Source: Rheinheimera texasensis DSM 17496
GTDB lineage: Bacteria > Pseudomonadota > Gammaproteobacteria > Enterobacterales > Alteromonadaceae
Reading direction: 5' to 3'
Assembly (NCBI RefSeq): GCF_000711985.1
Contig: NZ_KL544007.1
Location: 1 to 64,000 of the forward strand
Length of the DNA stretch: 64,000 nucleotides
Numbering within the stretch: the first letter of the stretch is position 1; every line of letters starts with the position of its first letter. This document shows positions 38,627 to 46,789 of the stretch, one piece after another. A program made the translations under genes and the position numbers. Below the pieces are notes generated by a model that was given only the letters and a program-made list of their open reading frames with translations, ran no database searches and was not told where the DNA came from.

Positions 38627-39106
38627 CTATTCAATTATATAACAGTCATTAATTTTAAACTCTGGGGAAAACGCACCTTTATTAAAGTAAGCATCCACTG
38701 AAACTGCACCAGGAGCAGGGGATGTAATGATTGCAATACTTAAGCCACTTTTATTAAACAACACAATCCCGCACTCTGAATAGTATTCGTCACATTCATA
38801 TGCAATCAACTTTGCAGAACTAATTGCAAAACCTTCAATTGATTCCAAACTAGAACTATCTGAACCTAAAAAACGATTCTCTCCTATTGATACCTTGATA
38901 AAACCTACTTCCTGCCAACCGTCTAAATCACCTGTCTTTGATGACAGTGTGACCACACATCCATTATCAGCCATTAACCTGAGACACCAAGTGCACGCAA
39001 GACTTTGGTGGTTAGGTATCTGGTAAGCTATGAGAGTAAGTCCCTCTAGCTTGGCTTGGATGCTATTCCAATTAAGACCATCAGCATCTATTTTAAATTT
39101 TTTCAT
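38627..39106 (-). CDS. Putative immunity protein for the RHS toxin tip
   Basis: 159 residues, no signal peptide, acidic, starting MKKFKIDADGLNWNSI. It begins 11 bp after the RHS stop codon and is clearly AT-richer than the RHS gene. A small cytoplasmic AT-rich gene immediately after an RHS gene is the standard position for the cognate immunity protein, and that is the only basis for the call. No motif I recognise; 'GWQEVGFIKV' and 'LIAYECDEYYSECGIVLFN' are its most distinctive parts. Confidence 0.6.
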   Translation of the reverse strand: MKKFKIDADGLNWNSIQAKLEGLTLIAYQIPNHQSLACTWCLRLMADNGCVVTLSSKTGDLDGWQEVGFIKVSIGENRFLGSDSSSLESIEGFAISSAKLIAYECDEYYSECGIVLFNKSGLSIAIITSPAPGAVSVDAYFNKGAFSPEFKINDCYIIE

Positions 39107-39117
39107 TTTCGGCCCTG

Positions 39118-42100
39118 CTACTTCTTTTCGTAGTGCAAAGTTTCATGCGGTTTGTCACCTTTTGCTGGGATATCAATACTTGCCCCCCCACTAGAATTCG
39201 TAGGCCTCCCAAAGATCCCATTCTCTCCGATTGAGCTGCCTGGTGGAGCTGAGTCTCCTTCCCCTGCGGGGCGGGTTCCACCAGTAAGGGTTTGCAAATC
39301 TTGTTCATAGTCACCTGTTCCGCCATTTTCGGGTGTAAGCGGACCGGAAGTATGTCTAGTCCCGCTTTTATTAGGACCTGCGCGTGAATCGCTTTGATCT
39401 CCAACTAGTTTTCCTGGCACCTCTGGGGCTGAAGAATTGTTATTCCCACTGTTAGCGGCTTCATTTAAAACCGCTCCCACAACGACTTTAGCTATCTGCA
39501 CTCCTCTGCCTGCAGGAGAAGCACTAATAACCATTCTGACCCCTGCAATTTTTTGTGCAGTACTTAATGGTTGTAGCGTTGCAGCCATTCCTTGGGGATT
39601 GTAGGAGCTTCTGCCATCCGGATCTGTAAATTTATATGGATTATTATTCGCATAGGCGTAGCGATTAAAACCGTAAGTCCCGTTTGTTCCATACAGATGG
39701 GCGACGGTATCCACCGGATCATTCGAATAGAACCGCCCAATCACCGGGTCATAATACCGCTGCTGCATATAAGTTAAACTTAAATCCTTGTCTTCGACAT
39801 GGCCGGTGTAACCTGGTTTGTCTTCAAGTGCTGCGGCGGAACCGGTTTTGGCGATAAGCTCTTTACCGAGGTGAATATAACGGGTCTGGCCGTTCGGGCC
39901 GTCGGTCATTAGTAAGCTGCCGGACAGGTCATAGATGCTGTAACCATTGCTGGAGCCGGTTTTTTTCACTCTGCGGCCGTGGCCGTCGTATTGATAGCTG
40001 ATGGTGCCTGAGCTGGTCAGCTGGTTGGCGCGGTTAAACTGGAAGGCGCGTTTGCCATTGTTAATCACGTTACCGCGATCGTCGTAGCTGAAGCTGTAGC
40101 CCCCGCTGACGGTATTTAAGCGTTTGCTGGTGCTGTGGTAGCTGTAACTCAGGTTTTGCGTGCCCAGCACTTTGCTGCTGAGATTGCCAAGGCTGTCGTA
40201 GCTAAAGCTGCCAGTGCCCCAAACGCCACTCGCTGTGTCCAGCCGGTCCAGGTCATCAAAGGTCATGCTAATAGATTGACTGGCGGTTACCAGGTCTGTA
40301 ATAGCATCCAGATTGTCATTGTCATCATAGCCATAACGCTGCCCCATGCGGTTTGTGCTGCCAGATTTGACCCGCCGTTCATCAGGTTTAAAGGCTGCAT
40401 TCAGGGTTTGATTGAAGGTCAGGCCATTGCCATAGGTGTAACTTTTGAGCTGACCATTGGGGTGGTACAGCACATCGCTGGCGTACGTTTGACTGTCTGC
40501 CACCTGAGTTGGTAGCCCCAGCGCATTGGGCGCATAAGCAAGTGTGGCACCACCGTAGGTTTTGCTTTGCAAGTGGCCGTGATTGTTATAGGCAAGACCA
40601 ATGGTATAGGTCTTACTGTCCAGGCTCAGGCTTTGCTCGTAGGGCAGGTTCAGGCTGTTATAGGCATAACTCCAGCTGTTATTGCCGTTTACCAGGCCGG
40701 TCAAATTGCCCTGGCGGTCTAAAGTGACGGTTTTGGTGGCGGTGCCGTCGGCATAACTGGTTTCCCAGGCGTCGCCTAACTTGTCATAGGTTTGGGTGAC
40801 CCAGCTGCTGGCTGCGTTGATGTAGTCAGAACAACTATTGCTGCTGTCCGCCGGATTATCGGACAACCCTTCGGCATAGTCGGTGACCTGGCCAAGTATA
40901 TTATATTTCAGCACTTTGATGCCGGTTTCCGGCCGTTTTTGCAGGCACAGGCGCATGGCACTGTCATACCGGCGCTCTTCGGTAACATCGCCTTGCGTGA
41001 TAGATACAGGCAGATTGGCGATGTTGTAACTGATGGTGGTGGTTACACCTTCTGGCTGACTGATAAGCATGGCCAAATCTGTCGCCGGGCTGCCATAGGC
41101 CAGATACTGCGTAGTGGTGCTGTGGCCTTTGCCGTTGCTGACACTGATGCTGTTATTGCTGCCGTAGCTGAAACTCAGGTTGCCGTTGGCGGTATTGGTC
41201 TGGCTGACGATGCGCTGTAAACCATCATAAGTTGTAGAGGTGCCGTAAGTTTCGGTGCTGGAAGCTGAAGGGACAGAGGTAAAAGTTGCCTTACCGTATG
41301 CGTTGAACTGCTGATTGATATAACGCACTGTGTCAGCTTCATCGTCGTTGTCCCATTCTTTACTGAGTACCGGTTGCATTAGCGCATCTAAGGTGATGGT
41401 TTTCCGGTAACTGCCGCGGGTGATTTTTTGCAGCAGGGCGCCAACCGCGCTGGTATCGGCCTCATAGCTGATGCTGGTGTTGAGCCACTGGCTGTCTTCC
41501 GGGTCAATCAGTGTCAGCCGGTTCAGGCTGTCGTAGCTATAGCTGGTTTTGTTGCCGTTGAGGTCCTTCGCCCAGGCGATAGTACCGGTGTCGTTGACAC
41601 TGAGGCTCACAGTAAAATTTCCGGTGATATAGCGGTTGGGCAGTTTGATACTCTCTGGTTTTCCCCGTTTATAACTGCCAAATTCAACCCAGCGGTCGGT
41701 GATGGCGTAAGTGGTTTTTTTCAGCGTACCGTCCGCGTTGTACTGGTGACTATGGACGACTAGCTGTCCATTGCGGCTTTCGGTTTTTGGTAATGATTTT
41801 TCTGCATCGGTTGGCGCGTAGTAAGTCGCTGAACGCTCAGAATAGCTGTTGCCATTTTGGCTGATTTGACGATTGGCTTCCTGGTTTAACACCCAGTTGC
41901 TGGTGTCCTGATGATAAGTCGTCACAATGGTGCGCTCAGGTACGCCCAGTGAATTGTTTTCTACGGTTTTGGTCGGCAAACCATAGCTGTTGTACTCAGG
42001 ATATTCGGTGGTGAAACTATCTCCTGCCACACCACCTGTGTAACTAATCACTTTTTCACTGGTTTTATTGATGTAGTTCTCATGTGGTGCCGGGTTGTCG

Positions 42101-43959
42101 GTCAGATACGCAGTCCCGAGCTCATTGCCCGTATAGGAGGTCATCTCGACTGAGCCTCCGGTAGCCACCGCCGCAAACTTCCGTTCAATCCGGCGCAGCA
42201 AGCTGCTGCCATCAGTGTCGTAATACTCAGTGCCGACTTCCTGCCCGTCGGTATGGTCCCAACGCCGGCTAAAGATATGCACGGTTTTGGCACCATCAGG
42301 TGTGGTGATGCTGGTAGATCGTAAATCCATCAGGTTGTAAGTGGCTGGTGTGGCTGCAAGGCCAGTCAGTTGCGCACCAGTACCGGCAACGTTCCACGAA
42401 CCTTTGTTCTGGGAATATGCATACTGCCAGCTCATCGCGGATAGCCCCGGGCCGCTCAGCGTTTTTTGCTCCAGCGAATTCGTCACAAAACATAAGTCAT
42501 TGGTGTGGACGTCACCATGGGGATAGCCGCTGTAATTTGACAGGACCTTAGGCACCTGTGAGCGGCCAAACCGGGTAAAACGCATTGATAAATCGAGGCG
42601 GGCGCCATTGGGATGAACTAAGAACGCTGATTGCGCCGGATTGGTCGCCGGTAACAAATCCAGGCATTGGGTTTCGATGATTTGGTAAAGGTCGACAATG
42701 GCTTCGTCACCTTCTGGGTTGTATTTAATGTGGTAGTAGTAGTCACGCTGCGTGGCACTGCCTGGTGTGATGTTCAGTGCGGCTAAAGAGAACTGCCACT
42801 TCTTGCCGTCCGGCCGCTCCACTTCAATCAGCGAGTCATTGTTACTGGGGTGAGTTGCATTCTGGTAACGGTAAGTCCAGGTCTGGCCGTTGGCCGTCAT
42901 GGAACGGACCCGCTTTTTACCATAAGTATTGGTTTCATAAGCGATATCGATTTGCCGACCATCTGGACTAGAAATGGAGCTAAGCTGGCCGTCGGTATAG
43001 GTGTAATTCACCGTATTGCCGAAACGGTCGGTGATTTTAGATACCAATAAATACGCATTATACTTGGCAACGACTTCGTCAAACCCCAGACCATTGGCCG
43101 CACTCATCGGAGTGGTGGGGATCAGCTTAGGCTGAGTAAATTCATAAGTGACGCCTTCTGGTGAGGTAGCTTTTAAACCTTCAATCGTCACACCATCAAC
43201 AGACACAGCCGTGCAGGCAAATTTCCAGTTTTTAATAAAACGTTGTGCGACATAGTTCTGGTATTTCACCTGAACTTTTTCACTGATAACGCCGGGGATA
43301 TCCAGCGTCTCACCACTCCAATAATCACCGGATGCGAGAATTTGGTTGGGGCCAACAGCAAAATTGCCCGGATTGAGCTGGCCTGAGCACATGCTACCGC
43401 TGCCCCAGTTCCCAGAGAATCGCTGATAGGTGATGTGATCATAAATCACCGTCGTGCTGATACTGGGAATAGCAATATTCCATTCACCGAGATTCAGGTT
43501 GCTGTAGTGGGCATAGTTTGCACCTTTGAAGATACGGCGAAACTCGACCGGTATATTGAAGTTGCCAGGGATACTTATATCCACTTGTTGCAAAGACACC
43601 GCGCCGGTGTTGAGGTCTATAGTTTCACCAAATAACGCAGTGGTTTCTGGCGTGACTTGTTCGCTGACTTTGAGTTTATCCAGAATCATCGCGCTCATAT
43701 TGGTACCCGGCACGACGACATCATCACTCATCAGTTCGTCGTAGACGGACGTGACGCTGCCGCCCTGCGCCTGATCTTTTTTCTTGGCTTTTTTCACCGC
43801 TTTGTATTGTTTCGGCTGTTTTGGTGTAACGCCGGGTTCAATCGCAGCAAGCCAGATTGCGGTGGCATCTTTAACTTTTTGTGTTTCCGGCCCCGCGTTT
43901 ATCGACAGGCTGGTCAGCGCCAAAGTGGCCAGAATGGTCAGAGTAGAAATATGCTTCAT
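39118..43959 (-). CDS. Secreted RHS-repeat protein with variable C-terminal tip
   Basis: 1613 residues from MKHISTLTILATLAL (AAGGGA upstream); signal peptide 1-23. Residues ~100-500 are the N-terminal beta-rich part, then many YD/RHS repeats ('GNLTGLVNGNNSWSYAYNS', 'YGYDDNDNLDAITDL'). The core ends with 'YMQQRYYDPVIGRFYSNDP' and 'YAYANNNPYKFTDPDGR'. About 165 residues follow that boundary (39118-39615) and end 'IDIPAKGDKPHETLHYEKK'; this is the likely toxin, family not identified. In the core the passage from 'IHLGKELIAKTGS' goes straight to 'EDKPGYTGHVEDKD', omitting the usual HTDxLGS strand segment. Confidence 0.9.
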   Translation of the reverse strand: MKHISTLTILATLALTSLSINAGPETQKVKDATAIWLAAIEPGVTPKQPKQYKAVKKAKKKDQAQGGSVTSVYDELMSDDVVVPGTNMSAMILDKLKVSEQVTPETTALFGETIDLNTGAVSLQQVDISIPGNFNIPVEFRRIFKGANYAHYSNLNLGEWNIAIPSISTTVIYDHITYQRFSGNWGSGSMCSGQLNPGNFAVGPNQILASGDYWSGETLDIPGVISEKVQVKYQNYVAQRFIKNWKFACTAVSVDGVTIEGLKATSPEGVTYEFTQPKLIPTTPMSAANGLGFDEVVAKYNAYLLVSKITDRFGNTVNYTYTDGQLSSISSPDGRQIDIAYETNTYGKKRVRSMTANGQTWTYRYQNATHPSNNDSLIEVERPDGKKWQFSLAALNITPGSATQRDYYYHIKYNPEGDEAIVDLYQIIETQCLDLLPATNPAQSAFLVHPNGARLDLSMRFTRFGRSQVPKVLSNYSGYPHGDVHTNDLCFVTNSLEQKTLSGPGLSAMSWQYAYSQNKGSWNVAGTGAQLTGLAATPATYNLMDLRSTSITTPDGAKTVHIFSRRWDHTDGQEVGTEYYDTDGSSLLRRIERKFAAVATGGSVEMTSYTGNELGTAYLTDNPAPHENYINKTSEKVISYTGGVAGDSFTTEYPEYNSYGLPTKTVENNSLGVPERTIVTTYHQDTSNWVLNQEANRQISQNGNSYSERSATYYAPTDAEKSLPKTESRNGQLVVHSHQYNADGTLKKTTYAITDRWVEFGSYKRGKPESIKLPNRYITGNFTVSLSVNDTGTIAWAKDLNGNKTSYSYDSLNRLTLIDPEDSQWLNTSISYEADTSAVGALLQKITRGSYRKTITLDALMQPVLSKEWDNDDEADTVRYINQQFNAYGKATFTSVPSASSTETYGTSTTYDGLQRIVSQTNTANGNLSFSYGSNNSISVSNGKGHSTTTQYLAYGSPATDLAMLISQPEGVTTTISYNIANLPVSITQGDVTEERRYDSAMRLCLQKRPETGIKVLKYNILGQVTDYAEGLSDNPADSSNSCSDYINAASSWVTQTYDKLGDAWETSYADGTATKTVTLDRQGNLTGLVNGNNSWSYAYNSLNLPYEQSLSLDSKTYTIGLAYNNHGHLQSKTYGGATLAYAPNALGLPTQVADSQTYASDVLYHPNGQLKSYTYGNGLTFNQTLNAAFKPDERRVKSGSTNRMGQRYGYDDNDNLDAITDLVTASQSISMTFDDLDRLDTASGVWGTGSFSYDSLGNLSSKVLGTQNLSYSYHSTSKRLNTVSGGYSFSYDDRGNVINNGKRAFQFNRANQLTSSGTISYQYDGHGRRVKKTGSSNGYSIYDLSGSLLMTDGPNGQTRYIHLGKELIAKTGSAAALEDKPGYTGHVEDKDLSLTYMQQRYYDPVIGRFYSNDPVDTVAHLYGTNGTYGFNRYAYANNNPYKFTDPDGRSSYNPQGMAATLQPLSTAQKIAGVRMVISASPAGRGVQIAKVVVGAVLNEAANSGNNNSSAPEVPGKLVGDQSDSRAGPNKSGTRHTSGPLTPENGGTGDYEQDLQTLTGGTRPAGEGDSAPPGSSIGENGIFGRPTNSSGGASIDIPAKGDKPHETLHYEKK

Positions 43960-43972
43960 CTGAATTAATCCC

Positions 43973-46789
43973 TTAATTATCCTTGCTCTCGCCAAATGGT
44001 TTGTATTCCGTGCGTTTTTTCACGTTGCCACTGGCATCGGTTTCTAAAATCACGGATCCAAGCACGTCGGTGTGTAAATAGATGATGGTTTGTACTGAAG
44101 GTTGAGCTGTAAAAGTTGCCGTGACAGTACATGCACCGGTAATAGCCGCTGTGGTGTAAGTCTTGCCAGACAAACTGCCGCCACAGCCTGAGGCTGCTGC
44201 GGTGTAGCCCGTGTTAGGGGTCACGGTGAATGCTGTCGTCTGACCGTGGTTGACGGTTTTGCCGGCAGAAATAGTACCGTTCTCACCAGCAGTGGTCGTG
44301 ACGCTGTACTTCCGTTGGCTGAAGGTAGCGCTGACTTGGCAGTCAGCTGTAATGGCACCGGTGGTGTAAACGGAGCCAACCAGTTTGCCGTTGCAGCCCC
44401 AGGCATCAGCAGAGTAGCCAGTGTTTGGCGTCACAACAAAAGTGGTTGTTTTGCCGTAGTCGACAGTTTTCTCCGGAGGGTCGATGGTGCCGTTCGCAGT
44501 GGCTGTGGTTGTTACTGTCCAGACTTTCGTTTTAAATGTGGCTTTCACATCACATGTTGAGGTGATAGGGCCTGTAACGTAAGAGTTACCAGAGCGCTTG
44601 CCATTGCAGCCCGTGATAGCCTGCACTTCTTTACCAATCCCTGGCGTCACATTAAAAGTGGCGCGGTCGCCATGTAACACTTTTGTTGAAGGGGTTGGTG
44701 AAATAGTGCCGCCGCCATCTGTTGAACTACCGACAACATAGGACTTGCGACTAAAAACAGCATCTACTTCGCAGTCAGAGGTAATAGCCCCAGTGGTGTA
44801 GATGGTGCCAACCAGCTCGCCGTTGCAGCCCCTGGCATCTGGCGAGTAGCCAGTGTCTGGCGTCACAACAAAGGTGGTTGTTTTGCCGTATTCGACAGTT
44901 TGCTTCGGTGGAGCGATGGTGCCGTTCGCTGCGGCTTTGGCCTTTACTGTAAAGGTTTGCGCTTTAAAAGTGGCGTGAACATCACATACCGAGGTGATAG
45001 GGCCTGTAACGTAAGCGTTCCCAGTCCGTTGACCATTGCAGCCTTTGATATCAAGCACTTCTTTGCCAATCCCTGGCGTCACATTAAAAGTGGCGCGGTC
45101 GCCATGTAACACTTTTGTTGAAGGGGTTGGTGAAATAGTGCCGCCGCCATCTGTTGAACTACCGACAACATAGGACTGGCGACTAAAAACAGCATCTACT
45201 TCGCAGCCTGCATTAATAGACCCTGTTGTGTAGGTGCTGCCAGATAATTTCCCATTACAACCTTGCACCGATGAAATTACAAAGCCAACTGCTGTCGATA
45301 GATTGAAAGAGGTTGTTTGGCCGTGGATCACTTTGGTGTTAGTCGGTGCAATACTGCCGCCGTCTGTCGCAGTTGCTGTGACGGTGTGAGACACGACAGG
45401 TGACAGGATTGTGATAGTCGAGGACGGCCCAAACCCCGAGCAGCCATTGTAGTTACAGCTCCGATACATTAATTGATAATTCCCTGCAGTGTTAATTGAC
45501 ACTTTGAGGGATGCAGTCGGTTTCGGCGGATATAAAGTTGTCGGTGCCGCGACTGTACCTAAATACTGCAGATTACCGCTGGGATCCTGAGCTGATAGTT
45601 GATAGGTCAGTGCGTTGTAGTCATTGTTGCTTGCCAGCACGACGTTAAACTGGACACCCTGCGCCGCCTGGTTAAAGCTCACTCGGGGCGCCTCAGTCGG
45701 AGGTTTGGGAATGATACCACCAGGACAAGCTTGCAGTGTGGTGATTTCGTCAGCCGCAATCATGTCTCCCGGACAACCTTGCAGTTCCGTGATATCGGAC
45801 TGCAATGAGGGCTTTACAGTATTGCCAATGCTGACAACCGGGCAATATTCCTCAGCAATCATGGTTTCAGTATCAAACAGTCTGCCAGCGCAATTACTGT
45901 TTTGCACGGTCCGTTCCGCATGGTTGTAAGCCCGAAATAAAACCGTCTGATGGTCCGATTTACGTCTGACTGCAGTAATACCTGATGCGCTATCCGACCA
46001 GCTGACATCAGCTTGCCGCACCGGGATTAACTTCCCGTCATCGCTGGCAAACCTGCCTTTCCCCTCACTATAAAGCAACACATGCGGTTGCTTACCGTCC
46101 TTTGACAAGGCAAAAACATCATCGTGGCCGTCTTTGTTAAAATCTCGGATGATCAAACGTTCATTATTTTTCAGTCCCCACTGCACGGTCTTGGATAGTT
46201 TTTTTGCAGTACCAAAATGATGCTGTTTTTCTGCCAGAATGAGCTGATGTTCGCCTTTAATGCTGTCAAGTTGCAGTAGATCTGCTTTCCCGTCCCCATT
46301 GAAATCACCACTGTAATAGAGTGAAGAGGGACTGGCGCGTAACCATTTGAATTGCCTGGAATCGTAGTGTTGTGTTGGAACTGACAGGTCTGCAGCGCTG
46401 TTGATGTACTTAAATAGCCAGGCGGAACTGCCATTATTTGCAATGGCCATTAAAGCTGCGTCATCTTGCGCAGTCGTTGTCAGCGCCAACAATTGGAACT
46501 TTTCCCGGTGCCAATGCACCTGATTAATTTTCTGCGGTAATTCGATGGGGTTTGTATAGTCATAGCGCTGTGCCGCGCTATTTTGACCTAAAACCAGATA
46601 GTGTTTGTCTGCAGCTGTCTTTGCCTGAAATAACAAATCCGGATAGCCGTCGTGGTTAAAATCCGCCTGCAGTATTTGGTGGGTCGCGGGATCCCAGTTA
46701 AGTGAAGCCGCTCCAGCCATTGGGCAGCTGCATGCCAAAAGCAAAGCCGCGTAAGCGAACCAATATCTGCTCAGGTATATCCTTGTCAT
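43973..46789 (-). CDS. Secreted FG-GAP/InlB-repeat protein ending in an RHS-core fragment
   Basis: 938 residues, GAGGAG before the ATG, signal peptide 1-27 (SCPMAGA). Residues 30-290 contain FG-GAP/VCBS calcium-type motifs (ADFNHDGYPDLLF, DFNGDGKADLLQ, DFNKDGHDDVFA). A Cys-containing linker and an Fn3-like domain follow (~360-460). Then come six ~70-residue divergent InlB B-repeats, each with a Cys pair such as GCNGKLSG...CEVDAVF. The last 35 residues, from YLHTDVLGSVILETD to EYKPFGESKDN, are the RHS-core segment missing from the next gene. The stop codon lies 13 bp before that gene. Probably a surface or secreted protein co-expressed with the RHS toxin. Confidence 0.85.
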   Translation of the reverse strand: MTRIYLSRYWFAYAALLLACSCPMAGAASLNWDPATHQILQADFNHDGYPDLLFQAKTAADKHYLVLGQNSAAQRYDYTNPIELPQKINQVHWHREKFQLLALTTTAQDDAALMAIANNGSSAWLFKYINSAADLSVPTQHYDSRQFKWLRASPSSLYYSGDFNGDGKADLLQLDSIKGEHQLILAEKQHHFGTAKKLSKTVQWGLKNNERLIIRDFNKDGHDDVFALSKDGKQPHVLLYSEGKGRFASDDGKLIPVRQADVSWSDSASGITAVRRKSDHQTVLFRAYNHAERTVQNSNCAGRLFDTETMIAEEYCPVVSIGNTVKPSLQSDITELQGCPGDMIAADEITTLQACPGGIIPKPPTEAPRVSFNQAAQGVQFNVVLASNNDYNALTYQLSAQDPSGNLQYLGTVAAPTTLYPPKPTASLKVSINTAGNYQLMYRSCNYNGCSGFGPSSTITILSPVVSHTVTATATDGGSIAPTNTKVIHGQTTSFNLSTAVGFVISSVQGCNGKLSGSTYTTGSINAGCEVDAVFSRQSYVVGSSTDGGGTISPTPSTKVLHGDRATFNVTPGIGKEVLDIKGCNGQRTGNAYVTGPITSVCDVHATFKAQTFTVKAKAAANGTIAPPKQTVEYGKTTTFVVTPDTGYSPDARGCNGELVGTIYTTGAITSDCEVDAVFSRKSYVVGSSTDGGGTISPTPSTKVLHGDRATFNVTPGIGKEVQAITGCNGKRSGNSYVTGPITSTCDVKATFKTKVWTVTTTATANGTIDPPEKTVDYGKTTTFVVTPNTGYSADAWGCNGKLVGSVYTTGAITADCQVSATFSQRKYSVTTTAGENGTISAGKTVNHGQTTAFTVTPNTGYTAAASGCGGSLSGKTYTTAAITGACTVTATFTAQPSVQTIIYLHTDVLGSVILETDASGNVKKRTEYKPFGESKDN
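44634..45206. repeat. 432-bp direct repeat inside the InlB-repeat gene
   Basis: The stretch 44634-44774 recurs at 45066-45206 with an exact 432-bp (144-codon) offset. The first 112 bases are identical, and one mismatch follows in the next 29. The unit covers two InlB repeats, indicating a recent in-frame duplication. Confidence 0.9.

Follow-up and report, generated by a model that had tools for sequence, protein, structure and literature searches.

The core of an RHS protein is divided between two adjacent genes in a 64,000-nucleotide stretch of DNA from Rheinheimera texasensis DSM 17496 (hereafter the window, meaning the whole stretch analysed). The RHS shell protein is devoid of the hairpin-bearing segment HTDxLGS...PFGE, and the protein encoded immediately upstream, referred to below as the donor or adaptor, ends with that very segment. 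The split is real and conserved; on comparison of the genomes, its best explanation is that an exchangeable adaptor complements the missing strands in trans. We propose, with a probability of about 0.8, that two exported proteins complete one RHS cocoon, the hairpin of the donor filling the gap in trans and thereby docking an exchangeable body. The features concerned are listed here by position in the window.

43973..46789, minus strand: strand-donor (adaptor) gene, 938 residues, with a signal-peptide-like N-terminus, FG-GAP repeats, InlB B-repeats and a C-terminal RHS hairpin tail
43973..44080, minus strand: donated segment, YLHTDVLGSV to EYKPFGESKDN (35 residues), plus stop codon, from the sequence and a PF03527 match
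39118..43959, minus strand: RHS shell gene, 1613 residues, with a signal-peptide-like N-terminus, YD repeats, a C-terminal plug and a variable tip, the segment being absent
39826..39846 (about), minus strand: gap site, TGSAAAL instead of the segment, from the sequence

The split RHS core of the window

At the gap site, the RHS reading frame (TRYIHLGKELIAKTGSAAALEDKPGYTGHVEDKD) has TGSAAAL alone in the place of the segment; where canonical cores show the HTDxLGS hairpin followed by another strand that ends in PFGE, the frame reads HLGKELIAKTGSAAALEDKPGYTGHVEDKD. The earlier note had pointed to this absence in a quotation that omitted AAAL, which leaves the point unaffected, and had rightly recognized the missing segment in the last 35 residues of the upstream gene, whose C-terminal end (43976-44080) reads YLHTDVLGSVILETDASGNVKKRTEYKPFGESKDN and is followed by the stop codon TAA at 43973-43975. 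The ATG of the RHS gene, at 43959, lies 13 nt past this stop on the same strand. That the segment is normally internal to such cores was borne out by five solved YD-shell chains whose alignments were inspected (two teneurin-like proteins, 8h8a, 8h8b and Teneurin-m); judging by coordinates, the alignments of Tc and other Rhs solved chains also span it.

Pfam reports FG-GAP and InlB B-repeats in the window donor and RHS repeats (PF05593, E 8.7e-17) in the window RHS, in which the NCBIfam profile of the RHS-associated core, TIGR03696, scores 65.4 bits against a cut-off of 32.5, the match starting at profile position 13. PF03527 (the 38-residue Pfam family 'RHS') matches the end of the window donor weakly (E 0.016, under Pfam's own cut-off). 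All five donor ends tested show such a match, with E ranging from 2.6e-5 (relative L073; L and G numbers are our handles for loci and genomes) to 0.23, each of them under the cut-off, and up to E = 1 no match to the family is reported for the window RHS. Because this profile is insensitive, having matched one (E 0.16) of three segment-keeping RHS proteins and missed the other two, it serves as a label and not as a strict test, and the absence of the hairpin from the window RHS is a claim that rests on the sequence itself. In the plug, D1414-P and D1446-P-x-G are invariant in 20/20 aligned RHS proteins and probably correspond to the aspartyl autoprotease pair of RhsA/Tse5. Searches of the PDB with the window proteins returned no match. 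Among named relatives, the nearest is a metagenome bin of Rheinheimera (L062), whose identity in the best-matching donor piece is 73%. The window genome itself yields one RHS match and one tail-profile match, the pair thus being one-to-one.

Both proteins seem to be exported: a simple hydropathy rule finds signal-peptide-like N-termini in 30 of 36 donors and in 55 of 65 RHS proteins vs 1 of 345 control slices. Pfam also matches 7 of 10 donor bodies other than that of the window, and the modules found in donor bodies (FG-GAP, InlB B-repeat, bacterial immunoglobulin-like, cadherin-like, fibronectin type III and chitobiase C-terminal) look like surface or adhesion modules.

Gap and tail in related genomes

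Within the genus, tail-ended frames occur in nine genomes (G000, G003, G004, G009, G011, G013, G017, G019 and G020), all of them stopping at, or no more than one residue from, the end of the tail profile; the frame in G003 (L081) is a 55-residue remnant. A search of the family found an RHS-core match in 121 of 295 genomes. The regions taken for comparison were a first 32 (some picked on donor matches, the remainder on an RHS match), 40 from the family search and a further 5 and 20 (one of them a placeholder), plus plasmid records. Twenty family-search regions were picked for a match spanning the segment site in one piece, a choice biased toward segment-less RHS proteins, and none was picked by inspecting the neighbouring gene. 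Frames of fewer than 1300 residues, RHS genes cut by contig ends (such as L071-L074 and L085) and L252 (the plasmid of L227) were left out of the count, as were L232 and L233, which were dropped because their segment (VMTDMLGS) sits on a separate cap protein, bringing the segment-less proteins from 47 to 45.

The segment is absent in 45 and present in 20 of the 65 full-length RHS proteins so classified (L156 and L158 carry it internally in HVD and HRD forms). A donor gene stands in the same locus in 38 of the 45 segment-less cases vs 0 of the 20 segment-keeping ones, counting as donor-less L230, which begins at a contig edge with its upstream DNA out of view (Fisher p = 3e-11, relatedness ignored). 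Strain-specific frameshift or sequencing error, which we had entertained as a cause of the split, was rejected, the same break recurring in many genomes with open frames. Thirty-six of the 38 local donors lie on the strand of the RHS gene and carry the donated strand at the C-terminus; one is divergent (L225), and one, on an Alteromonas stellipolaris plasmid (L248), carries it at the N-terminus, after the signal peptide. The 'one operon' of the earlier note is the usual arrangement and not a required one. Farther afield, the tail profile has matches in 16/345 genomes of the order, 13/321 of the class and 9/40 of the family of G500. The 43 loci from these searches have the match at the frame end in 7 and inside the frame in 36; outside the family of the window a terminal match occurs in only 1 of 35 loci (L191, in G500), the profile being short, so that lack of a match elsewhere does not show absence.

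Gap and tail are complementary, as the earlier note had noticed for the one pair, and across the relatives their lengths correspond in two sizes. Between the anchors LGxxLIA and GYTGH, the measure of gap size, segment-keeping RHS proteins have 47-53 residues (9/13 measurable), long-split ones exactly 12 (12/12) and short-split ones 28-35 (20/21, the exception being L152 with 73). From the first residue of the motif to the stop, tails of the long type have 32-34 residues and those of the short type 14-20. The long type, to which the window belongs, runs through PFGE; the short type comprises the first hairpin only, the last strand (e.g. MHYKPFGE) being kept by the RHS protein and absent from the tail. 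The cut point varies between the types while the sum of gap side and tail stays close to the canonical length, and tails on unrelated donor bodies stop at nearly the same residue.

On a tree of 65 RHS proteins, from which gap and tip columns had been removed, the state of the segment requires 7 changes, at least 5 of them on supported branches. In an average of 4.3 of 5 independent pairs the donor changes the same way, and in 0 the opposite way, and a smaller tree of 49 RHS proteins gives the same picture: gain and loss on the two sides are correlated. Four RHS proteins with an internal segment and no donor (L078; L148, L153 and L162) branch from within groups of split ones. Purifying selection acts on the donor tails. 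Between the window and L085, the proportions of nonsynonymous and synonymous differences (pN and pS) in the tail are 0.07 and 0.46, with an identity of 0.90 in the tail vs 0.68 in the body; between the window and L073, they are 0.18 and 0.81, synonymous sites being near saturation.

These data bear on two other explanations. A first one, put forward in the earlier note, is that the tail is a functionless, truncated RHS-core relic left by recombination, and remnants such as L081 and the partly decayed tails of L067 and L068 do exist in genomes in which core-tip cassettes move. It fails because of the conservation of the split, the purifying selection on the tail and the joint change of gap and tail; nor would it fit the near-identical end residue of tails on unrelated bodies or their occurrence precisely where the RHS protein is without the segment. 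Unless they are artefacts, the selection and association data already refute it, and we give it next to no credence. The other holds that the tail acts as DNA or RNA, being a recombination site for gene swapping or a signal for translational coupling, and not as protein. The 13-nt spacing of the window genes would suit coupling, and two donors of one genome, L142 and L229, combine unlike bodies (identity 0.34) with near-identical tails (0.96), which suggests that donor bodies are exchanged at the tail. Against this explanation, the protein sequence is kept in the window/L073 comparison despite the near-saturated synonymous sites, donors exist that are unlinked, divergent or N-terminal, and the lack of exactly that piece from the RHS protein is left unexplained. 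We hold it to be very improbable.

The pairing depends neither on the order of the genes, nor on their linkage, nor on where in the donor the tail sits. Orphan donors occur in G011, G017, G019 and G020. The single RHS match and the single donor match of G020 lie on different contigs among unrelated neighbours, and of the two genes flanking the donor, one also borders a donor-plus-RHS locus in G013 and the other does so in G004, so that the RHS gene seems to have been lost from that place. In G017, the sole complete donor found lies apart from its RHS gene. Two tandem donors precede one RHS gene in G013, and G072 has two donors in one locus. In the genus of L142, a body of the L142 type (35% identity over 307 residues, E 2e-43, for L234) is fused in L234 and L235 to the N-terminus of an RHS protein which keeps its hairpin, a fusion that, in the encoded proteins, links adaptor body to shell; no natural fusion of the tail onto the front of an RHS protein was found among the loci examined for it.

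Proposed assembly of the cocoon and known systems

The RHS protein would fold as a YD-repeat shell minus one hairpin, situated right before the C-terminal plug, and in the long-tail type of the window the strand following the hairpin would also be absent from the shell. The upstream protein would be an adaptor, whose variable, adhesin-like body carries the missing piece as a C-terminal tail. Assembly presumably taking place after export, the tail would insert physically into the gap in trans, completing the wall where shell meets plug, and would anchor the adaptor body on the cocoon that encloses the toxin-type tip, the body having a putative role in anchoring or targeting. Docking may also govern plug closure or tip release and thus be linked to autocleavage. 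Supply of the strands in trans, the second alternative of the earlier note, is in this way supported by the comparison of genomes, including those with unlinked, divergent and N-terminal donors. With less assurance, we lean toward a more general view in which the site is a standard socket: the wall hairpin would have moved to separate secreted adaptors, and bodies gaining it, at either end and in any locus, would plug in and decide anchoring or delivery.

Several points weigh against complementation in trans. Seven segment-less RHS proteins (L065, L067, L068, L069, L134, L136 and L222) are without a complete local donor. Beside L067 and L068, a short upstream gene retains the last strand alone (YQPFGESIDN), and complete donors stand elsewhere in the genomes of L067/L068 (G017:C28, G019:C27) and L065/L069 (G004:C20, G020:C316); for L134, L136 and L222, a matched donor was identified nowhere, although donors are present in the L134 and L136 genomes, some of them from other pairs. 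Five independent contrasts cannot reach p < 0.05, and several pairs of the short type show no higher conservation in the tail than in the body (e.g. 0.56 vs 0.66 for L084/L163). The G020 assembly is fragmented (680 contigs, 3% contamination). A single-chain AlphaFold model of the window RHS had a mean predicted local distance difference test score of 48, which made it unusable, and was not used. Finally, the RHS protein might shut its shell without the hairpin, the tail serving another purpose. As a separate observation, L134 and L136 (genus g54) encode full-length RHS proteins without the whole segment and with no adjoining donor.

The tail might also bind the gap as a removable latch, controlling plug closure, autocleavage or tip release without becoming a lasting part of the wall. 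The position of the gap beside the plug would suit such a role: in RhsA, the conserved region at the C-terminus spirals inward, closes off one end and forms the aspartyl autoprotease (PMC8765631), and in Tse5 the C-terminal plug comprises residues 1092-1168 (PMC10684867), the Tse5 hairpin probably lying just before it, to judge from phmmer coordinates. Orphan donors and several donors per RHS protein would equally suit regulation. Conversely, the segment is a regular internal element of solved YD shells, and donor and gap sizes sum to about the canonical length; we think a latch unlikely.

Completion of the shell in trans would be a variant of the known two-chain building of RHS cocoons, in which the transfer of the hairpin to the partner is new. 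As in the TcB-TcC (BC) cocoon of ABC/Tc toxins, an RHS cocoon would be built from two polypeptides and two genes, the complex being predicted here from the genes. Unlike the second Tc chain, which is the whole core plus toxin, the partner here gives a mid-core hairpin, or hairpin and strand; the toxin-type tip remains on the shell chain, and the window donor is without an SpvB match, Pfam giving only FG-GAP and InlB B-repeats. TcA proteins have about 2000 residues or more, and no frame of that size is present in the window, the longest having 1625. In the two-gene shell/cap RHS systems (L232, L233 and L240-L242), the break falls at the same joint, right before the HTD strand, but the hairpin stays with plug and tip on the second chain, and no third body alone supplies it. 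The shell gene of L232 and L233 (G105, G166) stops right before the hairpin, and the next gene encodes a repeat body of about 2000 residues followed by hairpin, plug and tip; in L240-L242, on phage-like contigs, the shell gene is near a separate gene for signal peptide, hairpin, plug and tip (frames of 336-362 residues). In donor-strand complementation of chaperone-usher pili, one exported protein lends a strand to complete the fold of a second. The split RHS pairs would work alike without being members, having no sequence relation to the pili and an RHS shell as the acceptor; the donated piece is as a rule at the C-terminus and consists of a hairpin or three strands. The RhsA and Tse5 effectors of the type VI secretion system share the YD shell and the C-terminal plug, which in them is an aspartyl autoprotease, and their processed pieces remain bound to the shell (PMC8765631, PMC10684867). 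Those effectors differ in being one polypeptide before processing, with the segment internal; the window RHS starts with a signal-peptide-like sequence in place of a PAAR domain, for which there is no match up to E = 1 (VgrG genes were not looked for). For Tc toxins, orphan partner genes elsewhere in the genome can join the complex, as described for YenC3 (PMC11067744). In the titles and abstract openings searched, no account was found of an RHS shell receiving a strand in trans, and the phrase 'in trans' is absent from the part of PMC3482391 that was searched.

In YD shells ranging from those of bacterial Rhs proteins to those of teneurins, the hairpin is an internal part, and its transfer to another protein therefore points to a new way of assembling cocoons and attaching modules to them; recurrence of the split in many related bacteria suggests that the shell takes up the partner as a plug. 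The socket view, if true, would amount to a modular docking system in which strands supplied in trans complement a toxin shell. The transfer of the hairpin also hints at a function for secreted proteins annotated as hypothetical, such as AVL57_01000 and FX988_RS21200, and yields a testable prediction on the assembly of signal-peptide RHS toxins.

Tips, cassettes and neighbouring genes

Two further features of the window lie at or beyond the C-terminal end of the RHS protein.

39118..39612 (boundary approximate), minus strand: variable C-terminal tip after the DPDG motif
38627..39106, minus strand: small gene, 159 residues, directly downstream of the RHS gene

Neither has a family match in Pfam or NCBIfam; the small gene is a candidate immunity gene on position. 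By their order, the variable tip and the small gene behind it would fit the layout of a polymorphic toxin. In the same genus, the tip of L078 (G006:C2), whose segment is internal, matches Tlde1 (E 2.8e-7), which we take to be an antibacterial family. Hairpin-first proteins of about 250-350 residues, in which the hairpin is followed by plug and tip with no shell, occur at L174, L182, L192, L237 and similar loci and mostly have a signal-peptide-like start. Core-tip cassettes are mobile in these genomes. L135 (G088:C2) has 12 core-bearing frames with differing ends in 19 kb, an array of such cassettes, and the Klebsiella pneumoniae plasmid pKP27-MCR1 (L251, 5971-6537) carries a split-type RHS core fragment that shares 68% identity with the window RHS and is flanked by an IS4 transposase gene on one side and a mercury-resistance region on the other.
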